Of a DNA stretch of 64,000 nt, positions 53,425 to 63,838 are shown piece by piece. A model generated the notes under the pieces. It saw only the letters and a list, made by a program, of their open reading frames with translations, was not told the DNA's origin and ran no database searches. Location of the stretch: positions 124,001 through 188,000 of the forward strand of contig JACPUR010000041.1 of NCBI GenBank assembly GCA_016192135.1, written 5' to 3'. Positions within the stretch are counted from its first letter, which is position 1. Each line of letters starts with the position of its first letter. This DNA comes from Candidatus Tectomicrobia bacterium (GTDB lineage Bacteria; UBA8248). The position numbers were made by a program, and so were the translations under genes.

Positions 53425-54171
53425 ATGCCGATTCGCTTCGAGTTCAATGGGCGCAAGGTCATCCTCACCGGGGCGGCCGGGGACATGGGCCGGCGCATCC
53501 TCAGGGGCTTCCTCGAAGCCGGGGCCCGCGTCTACGCCACCGACCGGGAGGGTCCCCGCCTCGACGCCCTCGAGGGCCCCTCCGGCCAATCGAAGAAAGG
53601 CGCCTGCGACCTGACGAACGTGCCGGACATCCGGCGCGCGATGCGGGAGGCGCTGGGCTGGCTGGGCGGCCTGGACGTGCTGGTGAACGTCGCGGGCTAT
53701 ATGCCTATCCGCCCGCCCCTGGAGCTCAAGGAGAGCGACTGGGCGGCCATCCTGGGCGTCAACCTGCTCGCCCCCTACTACTGCATCCAGGAGACGGCCG
53801 AGGCGCTCAAGGCCTCGGGCTCGGGGCGCATCATCAGCTTCGCCTCGATCGCCGGGAAGATGGGTGGGATCGGCCCCAACCTCCCCTACGCGGCGGCCAA
53901 GGCGGGCCTCCTGGCCATGACCTACAACCTGGCGCGCGAGCTGGCCAAGACAGGCGTGACGGTCAACTGCATCCTCCCCGGCCCGGCCGACACCGGCCTC
54001 CATTTCGAGTCCCCGCCCGAGATGCTCGCCAAGGCGCGGCAGGCCCACCCCATGGGACGCCTCACCACGCCGGACGACGTCTGGCAGGCGGTCCTCTTCC
54101 TCGCCAGCGAGGAGGCGGCCCACATCAACGGCGAGGCCCTGGACGTGAACGGCGGATTCTGGACGGACTGA
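53425..54171 (+). CDS. Short-chain dehydrogenase/reductase (SDR)
   Basis: A 248-residue classical SDR with TGAAGDMG (15-22), a modified NVAG in VLVNVAGYM, catalytic Ser in ISFASIAG and Tyr/Lys in YAAAK. The C-terminal EEAAHINGEALDVNGGFW closing is typical. The cofactor motif has Met in place of Ile (GDMG). It sits 23 bp upstream of the Sec-sulfurtransferase and is probably co-transcribed with it. Substrate unknown. Confidence 0.92.
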   Translation: MPIRFEFNGRKVILTGAAGDMGRRILRGFLEAGARVYATDREGPRLDALEGPSGQSKKGACDLTNVPDIRRAMREALGWLGGLDVLVNVAGYMPIRPPLELKESDWAAILGVNLLAPYYCIQETAEALKASGSGRIISFASIAGKMGGIGPNLPYAAAKAGLLAMTYNLARELAKTGVTVNCILPGPADTGLHFESPPEMLAKARQAHPMGRLTTPDDVWQAVLFLASEEAAHINGEALDVNGGFWTD

Positions 54172-54194: not shown

Positions 54195-55034
54195 ATGGCA
54201 ACCGACAATCCCAAAGGGTACGCGAACCCGGGCCTGCTCTGGACTCCCGCCCGGCTCCACGCGCGGCTCGGCGACCCGAACCTGCGCATCATCGACACGC
54301 GGCCCGGCGAGCGCTTCGCCATGGGCCACATCCCCGGCGCCCGGCACTTCGACGTGTACGGGATCAACTGCGACGACACGGACGAGGCGCCACTCCAGTC
54401 CTTCCTGCGGATGTGGGCTTTCCTGCTCGGGAACCGCGGCGTCTCCTTCGGCAACACCATCGTTTTCTATGACGACATCACCGGGAACACCTGCGTGCGG
54501 GGCTTCTGGTTCCTGGAGCTCTTCGGCCACCCGGACGTGCATGTCCTGGACGGGGGATACAAGGCCTGGGAGCGCGCGGGCCTCCCTACGGCGCGGGACG
54601 CCGAGGTGCCCCAGGCGGCCAGGTTCGAGTACACCCTGAACCGGCATTGCCTCGCGACCTATAAGGACGTGCTGGCGGCCATCGGGGACGGGAATCACCT
54701 GCTCCTCGACACCCGCTCCGAGGGCGAATGGCGGGGCACCTCCAAGCGCGCCGGCCGGGGAGGCGCCCTGCCCGGCGCGGTCTGGCAGGAGTGGGTCCAC
54801 CATCTCACGCCGGAGGGGGAGATGAAACCCGCCGCCGAGCTGCGGGCGCAGTTCGAGGCGATCGGGGTGACGCCCGAGAAGGAAGTCACCGCCTACTGAC
54901 AGACGGGCTACCGTGCGGCGCACGGTTACCTGGCCCTCCGGCTCCTGGGCTATACCCACGTTCGGAACTATGTGGGCTCCTGGAACGAGTGGGGGAACCG
55001 CCCGGACCTCCCCGTCGAGATCCTCGGGGCCTGA
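54195..55034 (+). CDS. Rhodanese-type sulfurtransferase, selenoprotein (Sec replaces catalytic Cys)
   Basis: ATG 54195 (AGGAGAG before it) gives a frame with TGA at 54897-54899 (codon 235), then open to 55034; 279 residues. The two tandem rhodanese domains are about 15-130 and 150-275. In the second the active-site CxxGxR loop is read as [21 protein letters not shown], with Sec at the persulfide-forming Cys and the downstream [10 protein letters not shown] conserved. The first domain has no catalytic Cys (FYDDITGN), as in other thiosulfate sulfurtransferases. Family knowledge: they transfer sulfane sulfur; with Sec a selenylsulfide could form. No signal peptide. A 7-bp hairpin follows the UGA. 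Confidence 0.93.
54910..54926 (+). promoter_or_regulatory. Candidate SECIS hairpin of the sulfurtransferase gene
   Basis: ACCGTGC (54910-54916) pairs perfectly with GCACGGT (54920-54926) around a GGC loop that starts 17 nt after the UGA with G first. The 7-bp stem, 3-nt loop and spacing fit the bacterial SECIS consensus well. Confidence 0.7.
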
Positions 55035-55197: not shown

Positions 55198-56223
55198 ATG
55201 AAAAAACCCGGCATCGGTTTGTTGTCCCTTTCGGCCGGATTCGCGCTCGCGCTCGCCACGGCGGCCCAGGCGGCCCAGCCTAAGCTCAACGTGGGGGCCG
55301 TCAGCAACACGGGCGCCATGGTGGTCTTCGTCGCGGCGGACAAGGGCTTCTTCGCCAAGCACGGCCTGGATGGCAAGGCCATCGTGCGCAACACGGGCCC
55401 CGAGCTCAGCAAGGCCGTGGACACCGGCGAGGTCGACTACGGCGCCGCCAACATCGCCAACATCCCGGCCGCCCTGGAGCGCGGGCTCAACGTGAAGGCC
55501 GTGGTGGGCTACGTGGGTGGCTCCTATTCCAAATCGACGGACGATAACATGCTAGGCATCGTCGTCCGCCCCGACTCGGGCATCAATTCCATCGCCGACC
55601 TCAAGGGAAAGAAGGTGGGCACCACCTTCGGCTCGATCAACGACGTCTATCTCGTGCAGATGATCCGGAAGAACGGCCTGACGGAAGGGGCCGTCAACCG
55701 CGTCAACGCCTCCAATCCTTCGATGGCCGCGCTCTTCGACAGCGGCGGCATCCACGCGATGGCGGCTTGGGAGCCCTACGTCACCAACATGCTCAAGAAG
55801 GTGAAGGGAGCCAAGCTCATCAGCCGGGGCGGGGACCTCGTGTGCTTCTGCACCGCCTTGCACGGCAAACCGCAGACGGTCTACAAGGACCGGAGCGCCA
55901 CCCAGAAGTTCGTGGACGCGATGTCCGAGGCCGCGGCCTTCGTGCGCGACCCCAAGAACCTGAATGAGATTGGGCAGATCGGCTCGCGCTACATCCGCGG
56001 CATGGACGCCGACCTGATCAAGAGCACGCACAAGTTCTGGATCTACGACATGCGTCTGGGCAAGAACTCCCACAAGGCCTTCAACGAATCGGTGAAGATT
56101 CTGATCGATCAGAAGAAGATGAAGAAGCCCTTCGACCCGGCGAAATACTATGACACCAGTTTCATCGAGAACACGATGAAGCGCCACCCCGAGTGGTTCA
56201 AGGATCTCCCGGGGGAGTCCTAG
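55198..56223 (+). CDS. ABC substrate-binding protein, tandem paralogue 1
   Basis: A 341-residue periplasmic NMT1/SsuA-type binding protein. The signal peptide (KKPGIGLLSLSAGFALALA...AQA) is followed by the fold start NVGAVSNTGAMVVFVAADKGFFAKHGLDGK and SIADLKGKKVGTTFGS. All five paralogues share a Cys-x-Cys in VCFCTALHG and a C-terminal HPEWFKDLPGES. The ligand is unknown. It is the first of the array that ends in one ABC ATPase and two permeases, about 5 kb downstream. Confidence 0.9.
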   Translation: MKKPGIGLLSLSAGFALALATAAQAAQPKLNVGAVSNTGAMVVFVAADKGFFAKHGLDGKAIVRNTGPELSKAVDTGEVDYGAANIANIPAALERGLNVKAVVGYVGGSYSKSTDDNMLGIVVRPDSGINSIADLKGKKVGTTFGSINDVYLVQMIRKNGLTEGAVNRVNASNPSMAALFDSGGIHAMAAWEPYVTNMLKKVKGAKLISRGGDLVCFCTALHGKPQTVYKDRSATQKFVDAMSEAAAFVRDPKNLNEIGQIGSRYIRGMDADLIKSTHKFWIYDMRLGKNSHKAFNESVKILIDQKKMKKPFDPAKYYDTSFIENTMKRHPEWFKDLPGES

Positions 56224-56290
56224 GCCCGAAGCTTTGCCGGCCGGCCGGGGAGGCCCCGGCCGGCCGGTTCGTCCCAGGGCGCCCGCCCCG

Positions 56291-56677
56291 TCAGTCCACG
56301 AACACTTTCCCGCTCTGGTACGGCCCGCCGCACCCTCCGTAGCCGCCCACGCCGTGGATGGGCTCGGTGTCGGAAGTGTTGACCGTGGAGTGGATCTCCC
56401 CGCGGGGAATGGAGATGAAATCCCCCGGCACGGTTTCGAACGTCCGCCTCTCCTCCCCGATGTACCAGAGCGCCTTCGGCCCGGAGAGGTGATACCAGAT
56501 GAGGTCGCCGTTGGCATGGTAGTGGGGCCGGCTCTTCTTGGCCGGGGGGAAGATGGTGCGGTAGAGCGTGACGCTCTTCACGCCGCAGGTTTCCTCGGTC
56601 AGCCCGTAGTGCATCTCGAAGCCGGGCTCGTAGACCAAATCCGGGTCTTGGTTCGCATTCCTGACCACCACAGCCAT
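56291..56677 (-). CDS. Cupin-domain protein
   Basis: A 128-residue protein with a cupin core: PHYHANGDLIWYHLSGPKALWYIGEE (His-x-His and an acidic residue) then PGDFISIPRGEIHSTVN with the third His. It faces away from the rest of the binding-protein array and shares the promoter region with paralogue 2. ATG 56677 follows GGGAGAG. The role could be a ligand-related enzyme or an intracellular binding protein; not determined. Confidence 0.8.
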   Translation of the reverse strand: MAVVVRNANQDPDLVYEPGFEMHYGLTEETCGVKSVTLYRTIFPPAKKSRPHYHANGDLIWYHLSGPKALWYIGEERRTFETVPGDFISIPRGEIHSTVNTSDTEPIHGVGGYGGCGGPYQSGKVFVD

Positions 56678-56785
56678 CGTGCTCTCCCCTTTTGTTGATT
56701 CGGGCCGGCGCCCGCGTCGGAGGAGGGGCCTCCGCTCCCCAGGCCGGCGCGCCGCCCCCGGCATCTGCCGCCCCCGGTCCTTTCC

Positions 56786-56814
56786 ATTGTGAATCGCCCG
56801 GGCTTTCATTATAA
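56786..56814 (+). promoter_or_regulatory. Divergent promoter region: paralogue 2 and cupin gene
   Basis: On the plus strand TTGTGA (56786-56791), 17 bp and TATAAT (56809-56814), a perfect -10. On the minus strand a TATAAT overlaps it at 56812-56807, so one symmetric -10 could serve both directions; the minus -35 is weak. Leaders would be about 90 and 120 nt. Confidence 0.55.
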
Positions 56815-56910
56815 TACTTTTCACACGGATTGTTCGTTTCGAAGCCTCGTCGGCCGGAGCGCCATTGACGTATGGGAACGTATGCGGATTTCATTCTGAG
56901 GGGGACGGTC

Positions 56911-57936
56911 ATGCGGAAATTCCTATGTTTCGTCTGGATCGCGGCCGTGACGCTGGGATTCTCCGCCGCGCATGCGGCTCCCGAGCGCACCACCCTGAAT
57001 CTCGGGGCGGCGATCAACATCGGCAATCTGCCCTTCTATGCGGCGGTGGACAAGGGATTCCTCGCCAAGCACGGCATCGACCCCAAGCTCCAGCTCTACG
57101 CCTCGGGCGCCGAGATGAGCACGGCGCTGAACTCCGGCCAGCTCGACATTACAGTCGCCGCCATGTCCAACATTCCCGTGGCGCTCGAGCGCGGCCTGAA
57201 GGCCCGTGCCTTCGTCTCATTCACCGGCTCCGCGTACACCAACCCGGCCGACGATAATCTATTGGCCATCGTGGTCCGGCCCGACTCGGAGATCAAGACC
57301 TTGGCGGACCTCCGAGGGAAGAAGGTCGGCGTGACTTTCGGCGCCACCAACGACCTCTATCTCCAGGAGGTCCTGAAGAAGCACAACATTCCGCTGTCGG
57401 CCCTCAACCGGATCAATGTCCCCCTCGCCACTCCCGTGGGCTTGTTCGACACCGGCGGGGTCGCGGCCATGGTGATGTTCGAGCCCCAGAACACCATGAT
57501 GCTCGACAAGGTAAAGGGCGCCCGCATCCTCCTCCGGGGAGGCGGCTACGTCTGTTTCTGCTCCCAGGTTCACGGCCTGGAAGGACGGGTCTACAAGGAC
57601 CGCGCCCTTACCCAAAAGATCGCGGACGCCGTCGCGGAGACCGGCGCCTGGCTGCGGGACCCGAAGAACCTAGACGAGGTGGCGCAGATCGCCTCGCGCT
57701 ACATCCGAGGCCTCGACGCCACCATCGCGAAGCGGATCTTCAAGTACACCAGCTTCGACCCCCGCATCGGCAAGAACACCTACAAGGCGTTCAACATGTC
57801 CGTGCAGCAGTTGATCGCTCAGAAGAAGATGAAGGCGCCTTTCGACCCCATGAAGTACTACGACCCCACCTTCATCGATAACACCGTCAAGCGGCATCCG
57901 GAGTGGTTCAAGGATCTGCCCGCTGTTTCAGAGTGA
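56911..57936 (+). CDS. ABC substrate-binding protein, tandem paralogue 2
   Basis: A 341-residue protein of the same family: a signal peptide (MRKFLCFVWIAAVTLGFSAAHA), LGAAINIGNLPFYAAVDKGFLAKHG, then TFGATNDLYLQEVLKKHNIPLSALNRINV. The Cys-x-Cys motif reads VCFCSQVHG and the C-terminus HPEWFKDLPAVSE. ATG 56911 follows GAGGGGGACGG; a longer upstream frame lacks a signal peptide. It is more different from paralogue 1 than 3-5 are from each other by eye. Confidence 0.9.
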   Translation: MRKFLCFVWIAAVTLGFSAAHAAPERTTLNLGAAINIGNLPFYAAVDKGFLAKHGIDPKLQLYASGAEMSTALNSGQLDITVAAMSNIPVALERGLKARAFVSFTGSAYTNPADDNLLAIVVRPDSEIKTLADLRGKKVGVTFGATNDLYLQEVLKKHNIPLSALNRINVPLATPVGLFDTGGVAAMVMFEPQNTMMLDKVKGARILLRGGGYVCFCSQVHGLEGRVYKDRALTQKIADAVAETGAWLRDPKNLDEVAQIASRYIRGLDATIAKRIFKYTSFDPRIGKNTYKAFNMSVQQLIAQKKMKAPFDPMKYYDPTFIDNTVKRHPEWFKDLPAVSE

Positions 57937-58048
57937 CCACCGCGGGTCTTTCTTCAACGAGTGAGAGTGAGGTCGCGCAGGAAAGCTGATCAATCAAAGG
58001 CATGAGGCGCCATCATGCCGGGCGGCGGGACCACGGGGAGGAAAACCG

Positions 58049-59065
58049 ATGCGGAAGCTCTTGGGCGTGGCTGCGATTCTCTGGAGCGGAATCCTCTCGG
58101 CCGAAGCGGCCACCCCAATTGCCAAATACTCGATGGGCGCTGTCCCCAACACGGGCAACATGATCATGTTCGTCGCCCTGGACAAGGGTTTTTTCACCAA
58201 GCACGGCATCGATGCCAAAGTCATGCTCCGCGACACAGGCTTGGCGCTGAGCAAATCGCTGCAGGCGGGCGAACTCGACCTTTCCGTCGCCGCCATGGCG
58301 AACATCCCCGTGGCGCTCGAACGCGGCCTGAAAGCCCGGGCCGTCGTGGGCTACACGGGCGCGGCGTACACCCAGTCGGCTGACGACGGCATGCTGGCCA
58401 TTGTCGTCCGGCCCGGCTCGGGCATCAATTCCCTTGCGGACCTGAAAGGGAAGAAGGTCGGAGTCATCTTTGGAGCAATGAACGATTTTTATCTCCAGGA
58501 AGTCCTGAAGAAGCACAATATCCCCCTCTCGGTACTCGACCGCGTCAACGTCACAACCTCCAACGCGGTCTCCCTCTTCGACGTGGGCGGAGTAGGCGCC
58601 ATCGTGATGTTTGAGCCCTTCAACACCATGATGCTGGATAAGGTGAAGGGCTCCAAAGTGATTGTGCGCGGCGGCGGCCACGTCTGCTTCTGCTCGGCGC
58701 TGCACGGCCTGCCTGAACGGATCTACAAGGACCGGGGCGTTACCCAGCGGGTGGTGGACGCCACGTCCGAGGCCGCCTACTTCGTCCGGGACCCCAGAAA
58801 CCTCGACGAGATCAGCCAAATCGCCTCTCGTTACATTCGGGGACTCGATCCGGATATTGTCAAGCGGACCCACAAGTTCTGGGGCTTCGACACCCGCATC
58901 GGCAAGAACACCTACAAGGCGTTCAACGTCGCTGTGCAGCAGCTGATCGCCCAGAAAAAGATGAAGGCGCCATTCGATCCCGAAAAGTACTATGATACCA
59001 CCTTCATCCGCCGGACGATGGAGCGCCACCCCGAATGGTTCAAGGATCTTCCCGGCGGGTCCTAG
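58049..59065 (+). CDS. ABC substrate-binding protein, tandem paralogue 3
   Basis: A 338-residue paralogue: short signal peptide (MRKLLGVAAILWSGILSAEA), then the fold start MGAVPNTGNMIMFVALDKGFFTKHGID and KVGVIFGAMNDFYLQEVLKKHNIPLSVLDRVNV. Cys-x-Cys is VCFCSALHG and the end HPEWFKDLPGGS. GGGGAGG lies 7 nt before ATG 58049. The KKHNIPLS segment is shared with paralogue 2, which suggests a recent duplication of that pair. Confidence 0.9.
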   Translation: MRKLLGVAAILWSGILSAEAATPIAKYSMGAVPNTGNMIMFVALDKGFFTKHGIDAKVMLRDTGLALSKSLQAGELDLSVAAMANIPVALERGLKARAVVGYTGAAYTQSADDGMLAIVVRPGSGINSLADLKGKKVGVIFGAMNDFYLQEVLKKHNIPLSVLDRVNVTTSNAVSLFDVGGVGAIVMFEPFNTMMLDKVKGSKVIVRGGGHVCFCSALHGLPERIYKDRGVTQRVVDATSEAAYFVRDPRNLDEISQIASRYIRGLDPDIVKRTHKFWGFDTRIGKNTYKAFNVAVQQLIAQKKMKAPFDPEKYYDTTFIRRTMERHPEWFKDLPGGS

Positions 59066-59165
59066 GCCTGCCCTCGGCCAGGAATGTTTGTCCCGAAAGG
59101 AATTTTTGTTCGTCCGAAATGTTTACGTTCGAAAAGCCATTACTTCCTGTTTCAAGGGGAAAATA

Positions 59166-60185
59166 ATGCGGAAGGGCGTGAGGGCGATTCTTGCGGCATC
59201 GGTGCTCATTTTATCCGCGGCGGAGATATCGGACGCAGCCGGTGTGGTCCGAATCGGGGCCGCGAGCAACACCGGCAGCCTGGTCGCGTTCGTCGGGGTC
59301 GATAAGGGTTTCTTCGCCAAGCACGGGATCGACGGGAAGGTGGTGGTTCGCAACACGGGGCCGGAGCTCAGCAAATCCCTGAACGCGGGCGAGATCGACT
59401 TCGCCCCCACCGCCCTGGCAATCGTGCCCGTCGCCCTGGAGCGGGGCCTGAACGTGCGTTCAATCGTCGGCTTCGTGGGCTCCTCCTACATCAAGCCGAC
59501 CGACGACAATATGCTGGGCATCGTTGTCCAGCCCGGCTCGGCCATCAATTCCATCGCGGACCTCAAGGGTAAAAAGGTGGGCATCACCTTCGGCACCAGC
59601 GCCGATTTCTACTTTCAGGAGATCCTGAAGAAGAACAAACTCCCCCTGAGCGCCCTCACCCGCATGAACGTGCCGCCCCTCACCGCCCTCAGCTTGTTCG
59701 ACGGCGGGGGGGCCGAGGCGATGGTGATCTGGGAGCCCTACCTGACGAGCATCCTAGACAAAGTGAAGGGCTCCAAGATCATTCTGCGGGGTGGCGACCA
59801 CGTATGCTTCTGCGCCTCCATGCACGCCATCCCCAGCAATATCTATAAGGATCCGGATCTCACCCAGCGCGTCGTGCATGCCATGTCCGAGGCCGCCGCC
59901 TTCGTGCGAGATCCCAAGAATCTCGACGAAGTTGGGCGCATCGGCGCACGCTACGTCCGCGGCATGGACGCCGAGCTCATCAAACGCACTCACAAGTATT
60001 GGGTCTATGACATGCGGATCGGGAAGAACACCTTTGTGGCGTTCAATGCTTCGGTGAAGCAGTTGATCGCCCAGAAGAAGATGAAGAAGCCCTTCGACCC
60101 GGCGAGGTACTACGACATAACCTTCATCAAGAGGACGATGGAGCTTCACCCTGAATGGTTCAAGGATTTGCCCGGGGAGTCCTAG
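59166..60185 (+). CDS. ABC substrate-binding protein, tandem paralogue 4
   Basis: A 339-residue paralogue: MRKGVRAILAASVLILSAAEISDA signal peptide, GAASNTGSLVAFVGVDKGFFAKHGIDGK, then KVGITFGTSADFYFQEILKKNKLPLS. Cys-x-Cys VCFCASMHA; end HPEWFKDLPGES. ATG 59166 with AAGGGG upstream. Shares VRNTGPELSKSLNAGEIDFAP-type segments with paralogue 5, its nearest neighbour. Confidence 0.9.
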   Translation: MRKGVRAILAASVLILSAAEISDAAGVVRIGAASNTGSLVAFVGVDKGFFAKHGIDGKVVVRNTGPELSKSLNAGEIDFAPTALAIVPVALERGLNVRSIVGFVGSSYIKPTDDNMLGIVVQPGSAINSIADLKGKKVGITFGTSADFYFQEILKKNKLPLSALTRMNVPPLTALSLFDGGGAEAMVIWEPYLTSILDKVKGSKIILRGGDHVCFCASMHAIPSNIYKDPDLTQRVVHAMSEAAAFVRDPKNLDEVGRIGARYVRGMDAELIKRTHKYWVYDMRIGKNTFVAFNASVKQLIAQKKMKKPFDPARYYDITFIKRTMELHPEWFKDLPGES

Positions 60186-60229
60186 GCGCTTCGTGGAGCC
60201 GGCGTTTTTCAGCGGAAGAGGGAGGGTGC

Positions 60230-61249
60230 ATGTTGAAGGCCATCAAGGTGATTCTCGCAGCCGCGGCCTTGGCGGTGCTGGCGGCCGGGGAATCGGCCGC
60301 CGCCGACCTTGTCCGGATCGGAGCGGGAGGCAACACGGGCAACCTTATCATGTTTATCGGAGTGGACAAGGGCATCTTCACCAAGCACGGGATAAACGCA
60401 AGCTTGTTCGTCCGCAATACGGGCCCCGAGCTCAGCAAGTCGCTCCAGGCGGGCGAGATCGACTTCGCGCCCGCCGCCATGTCCAACCTCCCCGTCGCAC
60501 TGGAACGGGGGATGGACGTGCGCGCCTTTGTGAACATGCTGGGCTCCCCCTACAGCAAAGTGAACGATGACGCCACGGTAGGGATCGCCGCCCGGCCCGG
60601 GTCGGCCATCAACTCCGTCGCGGACCTCAAGGGCAAGCGCATCGGCGTCACTTTCGGCACGACGGCTGACGCCTACTTGCTCGTCCTCCTCAAGCAGAAC
60701 GGCATCGAGCCTTCAGCGCTCCAGCGCATCAACGTCTTGCCCGCCAATATCGTTTCGCTCTTCGACACGGGTGGAATAGAGGCCATGGTGGCGTGGGAAC
60801 ATTTTCTCACCGCGATGGTCGACAAGGTCAAGGGATCGAAGGTGATAGTGCGTGGCGGAGGTCATGTGTGCTTTTGTGCCACCATGCACGGCCCTCCTTC
60901 ACGGGTCTACGGCAATAAGGAGCTCGTCCAGCGCTTCGTGGACGCCGTCTCGGAATCCGCTCATTTCGTACGTGACCCCAAGAACCGGGATGAAGTGGCG
61001 GCCATCGGCGTACGCTATATCCGTGGGATGAGCCCCGATCTCATTAAGCGCACGCTCCCCCATTTCATTTATGATCCCCGCATCGGGCAGAATACTTTCC
61101 GCTCTTTCGAGCAAACGGTGAGGCTTCTCATATCCCAGAAGAAGATGAAGACGGCGTACGACCCAAAACGCTATTATGACACTTCGTTTATCGACAGCAC
61201 CGTGAAACGGCACCCCGAATGGTTCAAGGACCTTCCTCCGGGCTCCTAG
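60230..61249 (+). CDS. ABC substrate-binding protein, tandem paralogue 5
   Basis: A 339-residue paralogue: signal peptide (LKAIKVILAAAALAVLAAGESAA), GAGGNTGNLIMFIGVDKGIFTKHGINAS, then RIGVTFGTTADAYLLVLLKQNGIEPS. Cys-x-Cys VCFCATMHG; end HPEWFKDLPPGS. ATG 60230 follows GGGAGGGTGC. It is the closest binding protein to the ATPase and permease genes (117 bp), so it may be their usual partner. Confidence 0.9.
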   Translation: MLKAIKVILAAAALAVLAAGESAAADLVRIGAGGNTGNLIMFIGVDKGIFTKHGINASLFVRNTGPELSKSLQAGEIDFAPAAMSNLPVALERGMDVRAFVNMLGSPYSKVNDDATVGIAARPGSAINSVADLKGKRIGVTFGTTADAYLLVLLKQNGIEPSALQRINVLPANIVSLFDTGGIEAMVAWEHFLTAMVDKVKGSKVIVRGGGHVCFCATMHGPPSRVYGNKELVQRFVDAVSESAHFVRDPKNRDEVAAIGVRYIRGMSPDLIKRTLPHFIYDPRIGQNTFRSFEQTVRLLISQKKMKTAYDPKRYYDTSFIDSTVKRHPEWFKDLPPGS

Positions 61250-61366: not shown

Positions 61367-62155
61367 ATGCGTGAGAAGCTGATCGTCGAAGGCCTGAGCC
61401 ACCACTATCCGGACGAGTACACCGGGATGGACGTCCACGCCCTCGACAACGTGAGCTTTAAGGTTCATGAGGGCGAATTCGCCGCCGTCGTCGGGCCGAG
61501 CGGCTGCGGCAAGTCCACCCTTCTGAACATCCTCGCGGGCCTGCTCCCCCACAAGGTGGGGAGCGTGCGAGTGGACGGCACGGAAGTGAAGGGGCCGGGG
61601 CCGGACCGGGGGGTGGTCTTCCAGGAGCACGCCATCCTTCCCTGGCGGACGGTTTCGCGGAACATCGGGCACGGCTTGGAGATCCAGGGGGTGCCGGCCG
61701 CCGAGCGCAACCGCCGGGTGCAGGAATTCGTGGATATGGTCGGACTGACAGGCTTCGAGGGGCGCTACCCCCACGAGCTCTCGGGCGGCATGAAGCAGCG
61801 CGTCGCGCTCGCGCGCACGCTCTGCGCCAACCCCGTCGTCATGCTCATGGACGAGCCCTTCGCCGCCGTGGACGCCCAGACGCGGATCACCCTCCAGGAG
61901 GAGCTGAACCGCATCGCCATCGCCACCCGCAAGACCATCCTTTTCATCACCCACAACGTGGACGAGGCCGCCTTTCTCGGGGACCGCTGCTTTATCTTCA
62001 CCCGGCGGCCCGGCCGGCTGAAGGCCACCGTGAAGATCAATCTGCCCCGGGAGGCCCGCCAGTGGAAGAACGCGGCGGCCGACCCGACCTTCAACCGGGC
62101 GCGGGACGAGATTCTCGCAATGGTCCGCGAGGAGGTGCGCGATGGCGACGGCTAG
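61367..62155 (+). CDS. ABC transporter ATP-binding protein, nitrate/sulfonate type
   Basis: A 262-residue ATPase with Walker [10 protein letters not shown] (43-51), Q-loop [11 protein letters not shown], signature LSGGMKQR (138-145), Walker B VMLMDEP (158-164) and the His in [11 protein letters not shown]. It powers the importer whose five candidate binding proteins lie upstream. Its 3' end overlaps the first permease by 14 bp. ATG 61367. Confidence 0.95.
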
Positions 62156-62981
62156 CGCCCCGGCCGCCTCCTCCCGCCAGGGGCCGAGGACGCTCCGCTT
62201 CCCCCGCCTCCACCGCTTTTTACACAAGGGAGGCCTTGAGCTGGCCTGCGTCCTGCTGGGGGGGCTGGCCCTGTGGGCCCTGGTTTCCCACGTCATCCCC
62301 CGCCCCGATCGCTACCTCCCCTCCCCCGGGACGGTGGTCTACTCCTCCTTCGATATGCTGTGGAAGGGGCTGTTGCCTGAGTTCATCTGGAACACCATCT
62401 GGCGCCTCCTCATCGGAAGCGGCTTGGGCATCCTGGTCGGCATTCCGTTCGGCATCCTCCTGGGCCTGAACCGCATGGTGTCGGACATGTTCTACCCCAT
62501 CCTGAACTTCTTCCAATCCATCGCGGGCATCGCGCTCCTCCCCGTCGTGATGATCTGGTGGGGGAGCAGCGAGCAGACCGTCATTTTCGTCATCCTCTAC
62601 ACCTGCCTCTTCCCCATCGCGTTCAACGTCCTGGTCGGGGTGCGAAGCATCCCGCGCATCTATGTGAACGCCTTGCGCACCCTGGGAGCCTCCCGGCTGC
62701 GCATCGTCCGGGACGTCATCCTTCCTGGGGCGCTGCCGTCCATCGCGACGGGGCTCCGCCTCGGCATCGGCTTCGCTTGGCGGGCGGTGATCGCGGGCGA
62801 GATGCTGGCGGGACAGCAGGGGCTCGGCTGGATGATCTTCACGGCCCAGCAGGTGGACCTGACCGCGCAGGTCATCCTGGGGATGGCCATGATTGGCGTC
62901 CTGTGGATCGTGCTGGATCGTTACCTCCTCCGCCCCCTGGAGGTGGACACCATCCAGCGCTGGGGGCTCGTGCAGCGATGA
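62142..62981 (+). CDS. ABC transporter permease 1
   Basis: A 279-residue permease of the NrtB/SsuC/TauC type with six helices. The EAA-like loop reads [46 protein letters not shown], typical of the family. ATG 62142 overlaps the ATPase end by 14 bp, and its stop overlaps the next permease (ATGA). The pair probably forms the heterodimeric channel. Confidence 0.93.
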
Positions 62982-63838
62982 ATGCAGCCGCATCCGCACT
63001 CGCGCTGGAGAGAGTGGGCCTCGACCGGAGGCGCCTGCGCAGGATTGGCCTGGGCGCCATTCCGTTCTTCCTGCTCTTGAGCCTGTGGCAGCTCAATACC
63101 TACATGGGATGGCTGAAACCCATCTACATCCCTCCCCTCGGATCCGTGGTGAGCGCCATCTTCACCCTCCAGGAAGGATGCCCCGGCCTCTGGGCTGTCC
63201 TCACGATGAATGAGAGCTGTCTTTTCACGAGCCACGTCCTCTCCAGCATGGGCCGGGTGGGGCTGGGCCTGGCGGTAGGGGTGCCTCTCGGGATCGGCCT
63301 GGGCCTGCTGGCGGGAATGAGCCGCCGCCTTGGCAATGCGATGGAACCTCTGGGCGTCTTCGCCAACGCCATCTCCGGCATCGCCTGGGTGCCCCTCGCC
63401 ATCGTCTGGTTCGGCGTCGGCTGGATGACCACGCTTTTCATCCTCCTGAACACTGTGTTCTGGCTGGTCTTCTTCAATACGCTGCTCGGGGTGCGGGGCG
63501 TCCCGCGCACCTTCGAGAACAGCGTCCTCACCCTGGGGGGTGGCCGCCGCCACGTCATCTTCCAGGTCTACCTTCCGGGCGCCCTGCCCAGCATCGTGAC
63601 GGGCGTGCGCATGAGCATGGGATTTGGCTGGCGGGCCCTCATCGCCGCCGAGATGATCGGCGGCAACAAGGGGCTGGGCTTCATGATCTTCGTGTCGGCG
63701 GGGGAATATAAGGTGGAGGAGGTCTTCCTTGGCGTCCTTTTCATCGGGATCATCTGGATGATCACCGACAGGACCATTCTGGTGCCGCTAGAGAAATGGA
63801 CGATCGAGAGGTGGGGCCTGGTTTGGAGGCCGTCGTGA
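62978..63838 (+). CDS. ABC transporter permease 2
   Basis: A 286-residue permease, second channel subunit. The EAA loop reads [43 protein letters not shown]. An N-terminal Arg-rich stretch precedes the first helix. ATG 62978 overlaps the stop of permease 1. Its own stop overlaps the GTG of the next frame. Confidence 0.93.
   Translation: MNAAASALALERVGLDRRRLRRIGLGAIPFFLLLSLWQLNTYMGWLKPIYIPPLGSVVSAIFTLQEGCPGLWAVLTMNESCLFTSHVLSSMGRVGLGLAVGVPLGIGLGLLAGMSRRLGNAMEPLGVFANAISGIAWVPLAIVWFGVGWMTTLFILLNTVFWLVFFNTLLGVRGVPRTFENSVLTLGGGRRHVIFQVYLPGALPSIVTGVRMSMGFGWRALIAAEMIGGNKGLGFMIFVSAGEYKVEEVFLGVLFIGIIWMITDRTILVPLEKWTIERWGLVWRPS

Follow-up and report, generated by a model that had tools for sequence, protein, structure and literature searches.

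An open reading frame in the 64-kb window (the whole stretch of DNA that was analysed) contains a single internal TGA codon, which raises the question of whether the frame yields a truncated protein or a full-length rhodanese-type sulfurtransferase with selenocysteine (Sec) at its catalytic position. Apart from this codon, the frame is open up to its natural stop, which is a TGA at 55032-55034 (Table 1). Two rhodanese domains were found in the translated product (Pfam Rhodanese PF00581, 117 bits in two stretches), with the catalytic residue in the second one, as in tandem-domain rhodaneses; this assignment agrees with the alignment to 1e0c and 1uar and with the fold match. The closest PDB relative by sequence was the Azotobacter vinelandii sulfurtransferase RhdA (1e0c, E=2.8e-47), and the internal TGA aligned to the catalytic Cys of this protein (UQTGYR versus CQTHHR); it was also aligned to 1uar. 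Modeling using AlphaFold with five sequences led to a model with a mean pLDDT of 85 and TM scores of 0.83-0.86 versus 1uar/1e0c. RhdA (PDB 1e0c, 1h4k, 1h4m) has the same fold and 34% identity in the structural alignment, but contains Cys instead of Sec and differs in the loop (QTHHR versus QTGYR). The 3-mercaptopyruvate sulfurtransferase SseA is also a homologue with the two-domain layout; however, the score against its equivalog model NF008557 was 125.1 bits, half of the curated cut-off of 250, and the protein is not an SseA equivalog. The preliminary description, made from the sequence alone, had placed the TGA at the persulfide Cys of the second rhodanese domain, with both flanks aligning to the family through to the natural stop, and both statements agree with the alignments to 1e0c and to the Cys-containing homologues.

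Table 1. Features of the predicted Sec-rhodanese locus (positions in the window)
Feature	Position	Strand	Evidence
SDR-family oxidoreductase, first gene of the conserved cluster	53425..54171	+	PF13561 1.6e-48; precedes the Sec-rhodanese gene in relatives
Predicted Sec-containing tandem-domain rhodanese (sulfurtransferase), 279 aa, Sec at residue 235	54195..55034	+	Pfam Rhodanese PF00581, structure matches
UGA codon, predicted selenocysteine, catalytic Cys position of rhodanese repeat 2	54897..54899	+	TGA in 16 family genomes; Cys in L009, L028-L034
Putative bacterial SECIS: 7-bp stem 54910-54916/54920-54926, GGC loop 54917-54919	54900..54926	+	Synonymous constraint; absent from Cys homologues; likeness to selD
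ABC substrate-binding protein (NMT1/SsuA-like), CFC its only Cys pair	55198..56223	+	PF09084 5.5e-25; TIGR01728 108 bits, below cut-off
Second substrate-binding paralogue	56872..57936	+	TIGR01728 79 bits; CFC in translated ORF
Third substrate-binding paralogue	58049..59065	+	TIGR01728 101 bits; CFC
Fourth substrate-binding paralogue	59166..60185	+	ORF 58992-60185, start placed at MRKG; CFC
Fifth substrate-binding paralogue	60230..61249	+	TIGR01728 112 bits; CFC
ABC transporter ATPase (taurine/sulfonate/Sao-like)	61367..62155	+	SaoA 235, taurine ATPase 233 bits (NCBIfam), both below cut-off; conserved in cluster
ABC transporter permease 1	62142..62981	+	NCBIfam SaoP 132 bits, below cut-off; conserved in cluster
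ABC transporter permease 2	62978..63838	+	TauC 117 bits, below cut-off; conserved in cluster

In order to evaluate the conservation of the internal TGA, 18 genomes of one Candidatus Tectomicrobia family were searched; a phylum-wide search gave the same 18. An orthologue with 74-100% identity and exactly one TGA was found in 16 of them, the source genome included. The TGA occupied the identical codon in all 16 orthologues, and each frame was open to a natural stop, which was variously TGA, TAA or TAG. Nonsynonymous divergence 3' of the TGA stays far under synonymous divergence. A nonsense mutation or a sequencing error, leaving a truncated pseudogene or a protein of the N-terminal domain, would account for the interruption of the frame by a TGA, but it agrees poorly with an identical codon in 16 separately assembled genomes, with coding constraint downstream and with retention of the catalytic half. 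Frame decay in relatives with the same TGA, named beforehand as evidence against Sec, was seen in none of these genomes; this explanation was rejected as extremely improbable, the TGA being kept in all 16.

Homologues with Cys at the aligned position, which the preliminary description had proposed to look for, were found. They include the orthologue-like L028 (70% identity), the paralogue L030 (61%) and more distant proteins (set L009, L028-L034). A conserved in-frame UGA at a position where homologues have Cys is the pattern of SelB-dependent bacterial selenoproteins. In the phylogenetic tree, rebuilt without the very distant L010, the 16 Sec sequences formed one side of a branch with a support of 100/97; with L010 included, the Sec/Cys split was blurred. 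A single Cys/Sec change would fit this branch. A Cys orthologue preceded by two tandem SDR genes was also observed (L062, genome G011) and offers a natural Sec/Cys comparison. The genome G011 contains SelB, tRNA-Sec and a TGA-containing SelD, so loss of the Sec machinery does not account for the Cys form.

The codons following the TGA contain an exact hairpin (ACCGTGC, loop GGC, GCACGGT), which begins 10 nt downstream of the TGA and whose loop starts 18 nt after it. The perfect 7-bp stem, the GGC loop and the SECIS spacing were all as first described, and a hairpin just 3' of the UGA, with G in a small apical loop, is what is expected of a bacterial selenoprotein. Taken alone, the hairpin is weak evidence for Sec. 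A comparable hairpin (a stem of at least 7 bp with G near the loop start, within about 30 nt of the TGA) was found for 9 of the 194 TGA codons located in open contexts of the window, namely this one and 8 others, and the hairpin as sole proof of Sec was rejected because of these 8.

The conservation, in contrast, goes beyond chance, both for the TGA in all 16 genomes and for the codons of the hairpin. Among columns with conserved residues, the pairwise codon difference was 0.040 in the nine codons after the TGA versus 0.392 in the other 123 columns, and the synonymous variability of codons +1 to +9 was about tenfold lower than in the rest of the gene. None of 300,000 permutations reached so low a value, and every one of the lowest-scoring stretches in the gene overlapped the hairpin site. 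An Arg codon CGT within the hairpin was invariant in 16/16 orthologues; across nine genes of the window, CGT accounts for ~5% of the codons used for Arg. Among synonymous sequences matched in codon usage, only 0.06% formed a stem of at least 7 bp, and the Cys homologues were without the hairpin. Since the hairpin is nearly invariant among the Sec orthologues, covariation could not be used. A search with the Rfam SECIS family (RF00031) gave no match here and none in the control genomes either, and is therefore uninformative. The selD genes of this family contain a hairpin with a 3-nt GGA (GGN) loop at +18 from the UGA in 6/6 inspected cases; the selD and Sec-rhodanese hairpins are thus alike in geometry (GGN loop, +18), although the protein families are unrelated. 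The synonymous constraint, the rarity of such a stem among synonymous sequences and the likeness to selD together make the hairpin evidence strong.

The genome from which the window was taken encodes SelA (540 bits), adjoining SelB (389 bits), and a tRNA-Sec (74.8 bits), all above cut-off. Of the four genes that the preliminary description had listed for a check, selA, selB and selC are therefore present and the absence of selB/selC, given there as a refuting condition, does not apply, while selD was not found in the source assembly, where the best match was a ThiL-like protein, though it occurs in both same-genus genomes. In both of these genomes selD contains a TGA, and a Sec-coded SelD was found in 14 of the 18 family genomes; in this lineage SelD, too, is a predicted Sec protein, with the motif KAGG-U-GSK (L069, L070, L074-L077). 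The gene located beside selD in one same-genus genome was also absent from the source assembly, which comprises 41 contigs and has an estimated completeness of 96.8%. These two observations make an assembly gap the likely cause of the missing selD, without proving it. Formate dehydrogenase was considered as an in-genome positive control, and no TGA form of it was found.

It is known that the Sec machinery can, in principle, place Cys at UGA; readthrough with Cys, Trp or another amino acid, or a reassignment of UGA in this organism, was considered. Several neighbouring genes, however, and the Sec-rhodanese gene itself end in an ordinary UGA stop, and reassignment was rejected on this ground; the presence of selA, selB and tRNA-Sec and the SECIS-like hairpin geometry, matching selD, also make this group of explanations very unlikely. 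The conserved UGA, the intact frame, the constrained hairpin and the Sec machinery, together with the Cys homologues, make it very probable that Sec is inserted in vivo at the UGA of residue 235, as was proposed at first. The overall best explanation of the locus, a Sec-decoded full-length tandem rhodanese, was given a probability of about 0.93, the decoding itself being slightly firmer.

The preliminary description had implied that such an enzyme would have a selenium-sulfane chemistry unlike that of known rhodaneses, and this overstated its novelty. Sec-containing COG2897 (SseA) rhodaneses were predicted among the Sargasso Sea selenoproteins in 2005 (3 sequences; PMC1088965), and Sec-containing cd01449 rhodaneses were predicted in the GOS data in 2008 (8 sequences; PMC2398784). 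Sec rhodaneses are given as predicted in reviews of 2022 and 2026, and the latter includes a 'Rhodanese-like domain-containing protein form 4' with a UxxG motif and does not mention Tectomicrobia (PMC13188914). Like these predicted COG2897/cd01449 proteins, the protein described here is of the tandem-domain type, with Sec in UxxG (here UQTG), a putative bacterial SECIS and widespread Cys homologues; unlike it, they are metagenomic or single listed sequences. UQTG corresponds to the UxxG of form 4 in a tandem-domain COG2897-type rhodanese, and the likeness to MCY3690685.1 is by motif only. Because Sec COG2897 rhodaneses had already been predicted and UQTG fits UxxG, the Tectomicrobia protein is a well-supported addition to the known predicted Sec rhodaneses and not an unprecedented enzyme. 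The new elements are the lineage, the conserved operon placement and a second, separate Sec rhodanese in the sister genus. Until now, Sec rhodaneses had been predicted from isolated sequences; in the present case the Sec form is kept throughout a clade that has near Cys orthologues and a conserved operon. What a sulfurtransferase gains from selenium can therefore be tested directly by comparing matched enzymes of the two kinds, and predicted selenoprotein use is documented in Candidatus Tectomicrobia.

Relatives share the order of genes around the Sec-rhodanese gene wherever their contigs are long enough: an SDR oxidoreductase gene comes first, followed by the genes for the Sec-rhodanese, a substrate-binding protein, the ABC ATPase and two permeases. 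The exception is G006, with no transporter part within the stretch read. The window contains five tandem NMT1/SsuA-like paralogues at 55198-61249, where relatives mostly show one, and a cupin-like ORF (56291-56824, minus strand) lies between the first and the second of them. The CFC motif of the binding proteins is conserved in relatives, and usually the mature protein has no Cys outside it; the pair could be a ligand site for a thiol-reactive compound or a metal. The best scores of the ATPase and permease 1 were against the Sao transporter families but lay far below the curated cut-offs (SaoA 235 versus 360 bits, SaoP 132 versus 295 bits), and taurine or nitrate transporter models scored about equally; the two proteins are therefore not assigned to Sao.

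The catalytic Cys of rhodaneses accepts sulfane sulfur as a persulfide and then passes it to an acceptor. In the proposed mechanism, the UGA would be decoded by SelB and Sec-tRNA(Sec) under the direction of the downstream hairpin, and Sec would sit in the active-site loop (UQTGYR) of the C-terminal domain in place of the Cys that forms the persulfide. It would most likely take sulfane sulfur from a small donor to form a selenenylsulfide (E-Se-S) intermediate, the sulfur of which would be handed to a thiol or another acceptor; compared with Cys, the chalcogen should be more acidic and more nucleophilic. The predicted protein is quite probably an active sulfurtransferase. Judging from the operon, the sulfur may come from an imported compound, and the clustered genes for an SDR dehydrogenase and an ABC importer of the sulfonate/taurine type point to uptake and breakdown of an organosulfur (or organoselenium) compound as the likely role, although the chance of a part in the metabolism of an imported sulfur compound is put somewhat below even.

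The protein could instead act mainly as a selenium carrier, donating to SelD, or as a redox or metal-binding protein. Bovine rhodanese and RhdA are described in PMC9369223 as binding selenium in vitro, with rhodanese and RhdA carrying it as perselenide. The CFC pair is kept in the clustered binding proteins, and the ATPase and one permease are weakly nearest to the metal-linked Sao transporter families (PMC13188914). Against this, the Cys orthologue L028 is located beside a similar SDR gene, which argues that selenium is not essential to the chemistry; the Sao matches are far under cut-off with taurine-type matches about as good, and no link to selD was seen. A carrier or metal-binding function is thus unlikely compared with sulfur transfer. 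A more specific and rather doubtful proposal within the sulfurtransferase reading is that the Sec-rhodanese may serve specifically as the catalyst of a pathway, not yet characterised, for the import and use of an organosulfur or organoselenium compound: the ABC transporter with CFC proteins would import the compound, the SDR enzyme would oxidise it and the Sec enzyme would remove its sulfur via the selenenylsulfide. We know of no earlier pathway built around a Sec sulfurtransferase, and this one, if true, would be the first.

A second, distinct tandem rhodanese with a TGA at the catalytic codon (VLY-U-RLSHRASLVWF) was observed in the sister genus g2 (L042-L046, L049). Its TGA is accompanied by a stable 9-bp hairpin with a GTC loop. 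Cys counterparts of this protein were found in the source genome and in G016 (L047 in the source genome, and L050); within this family, the protein apparently represents a Cys/Sec switch of its own.
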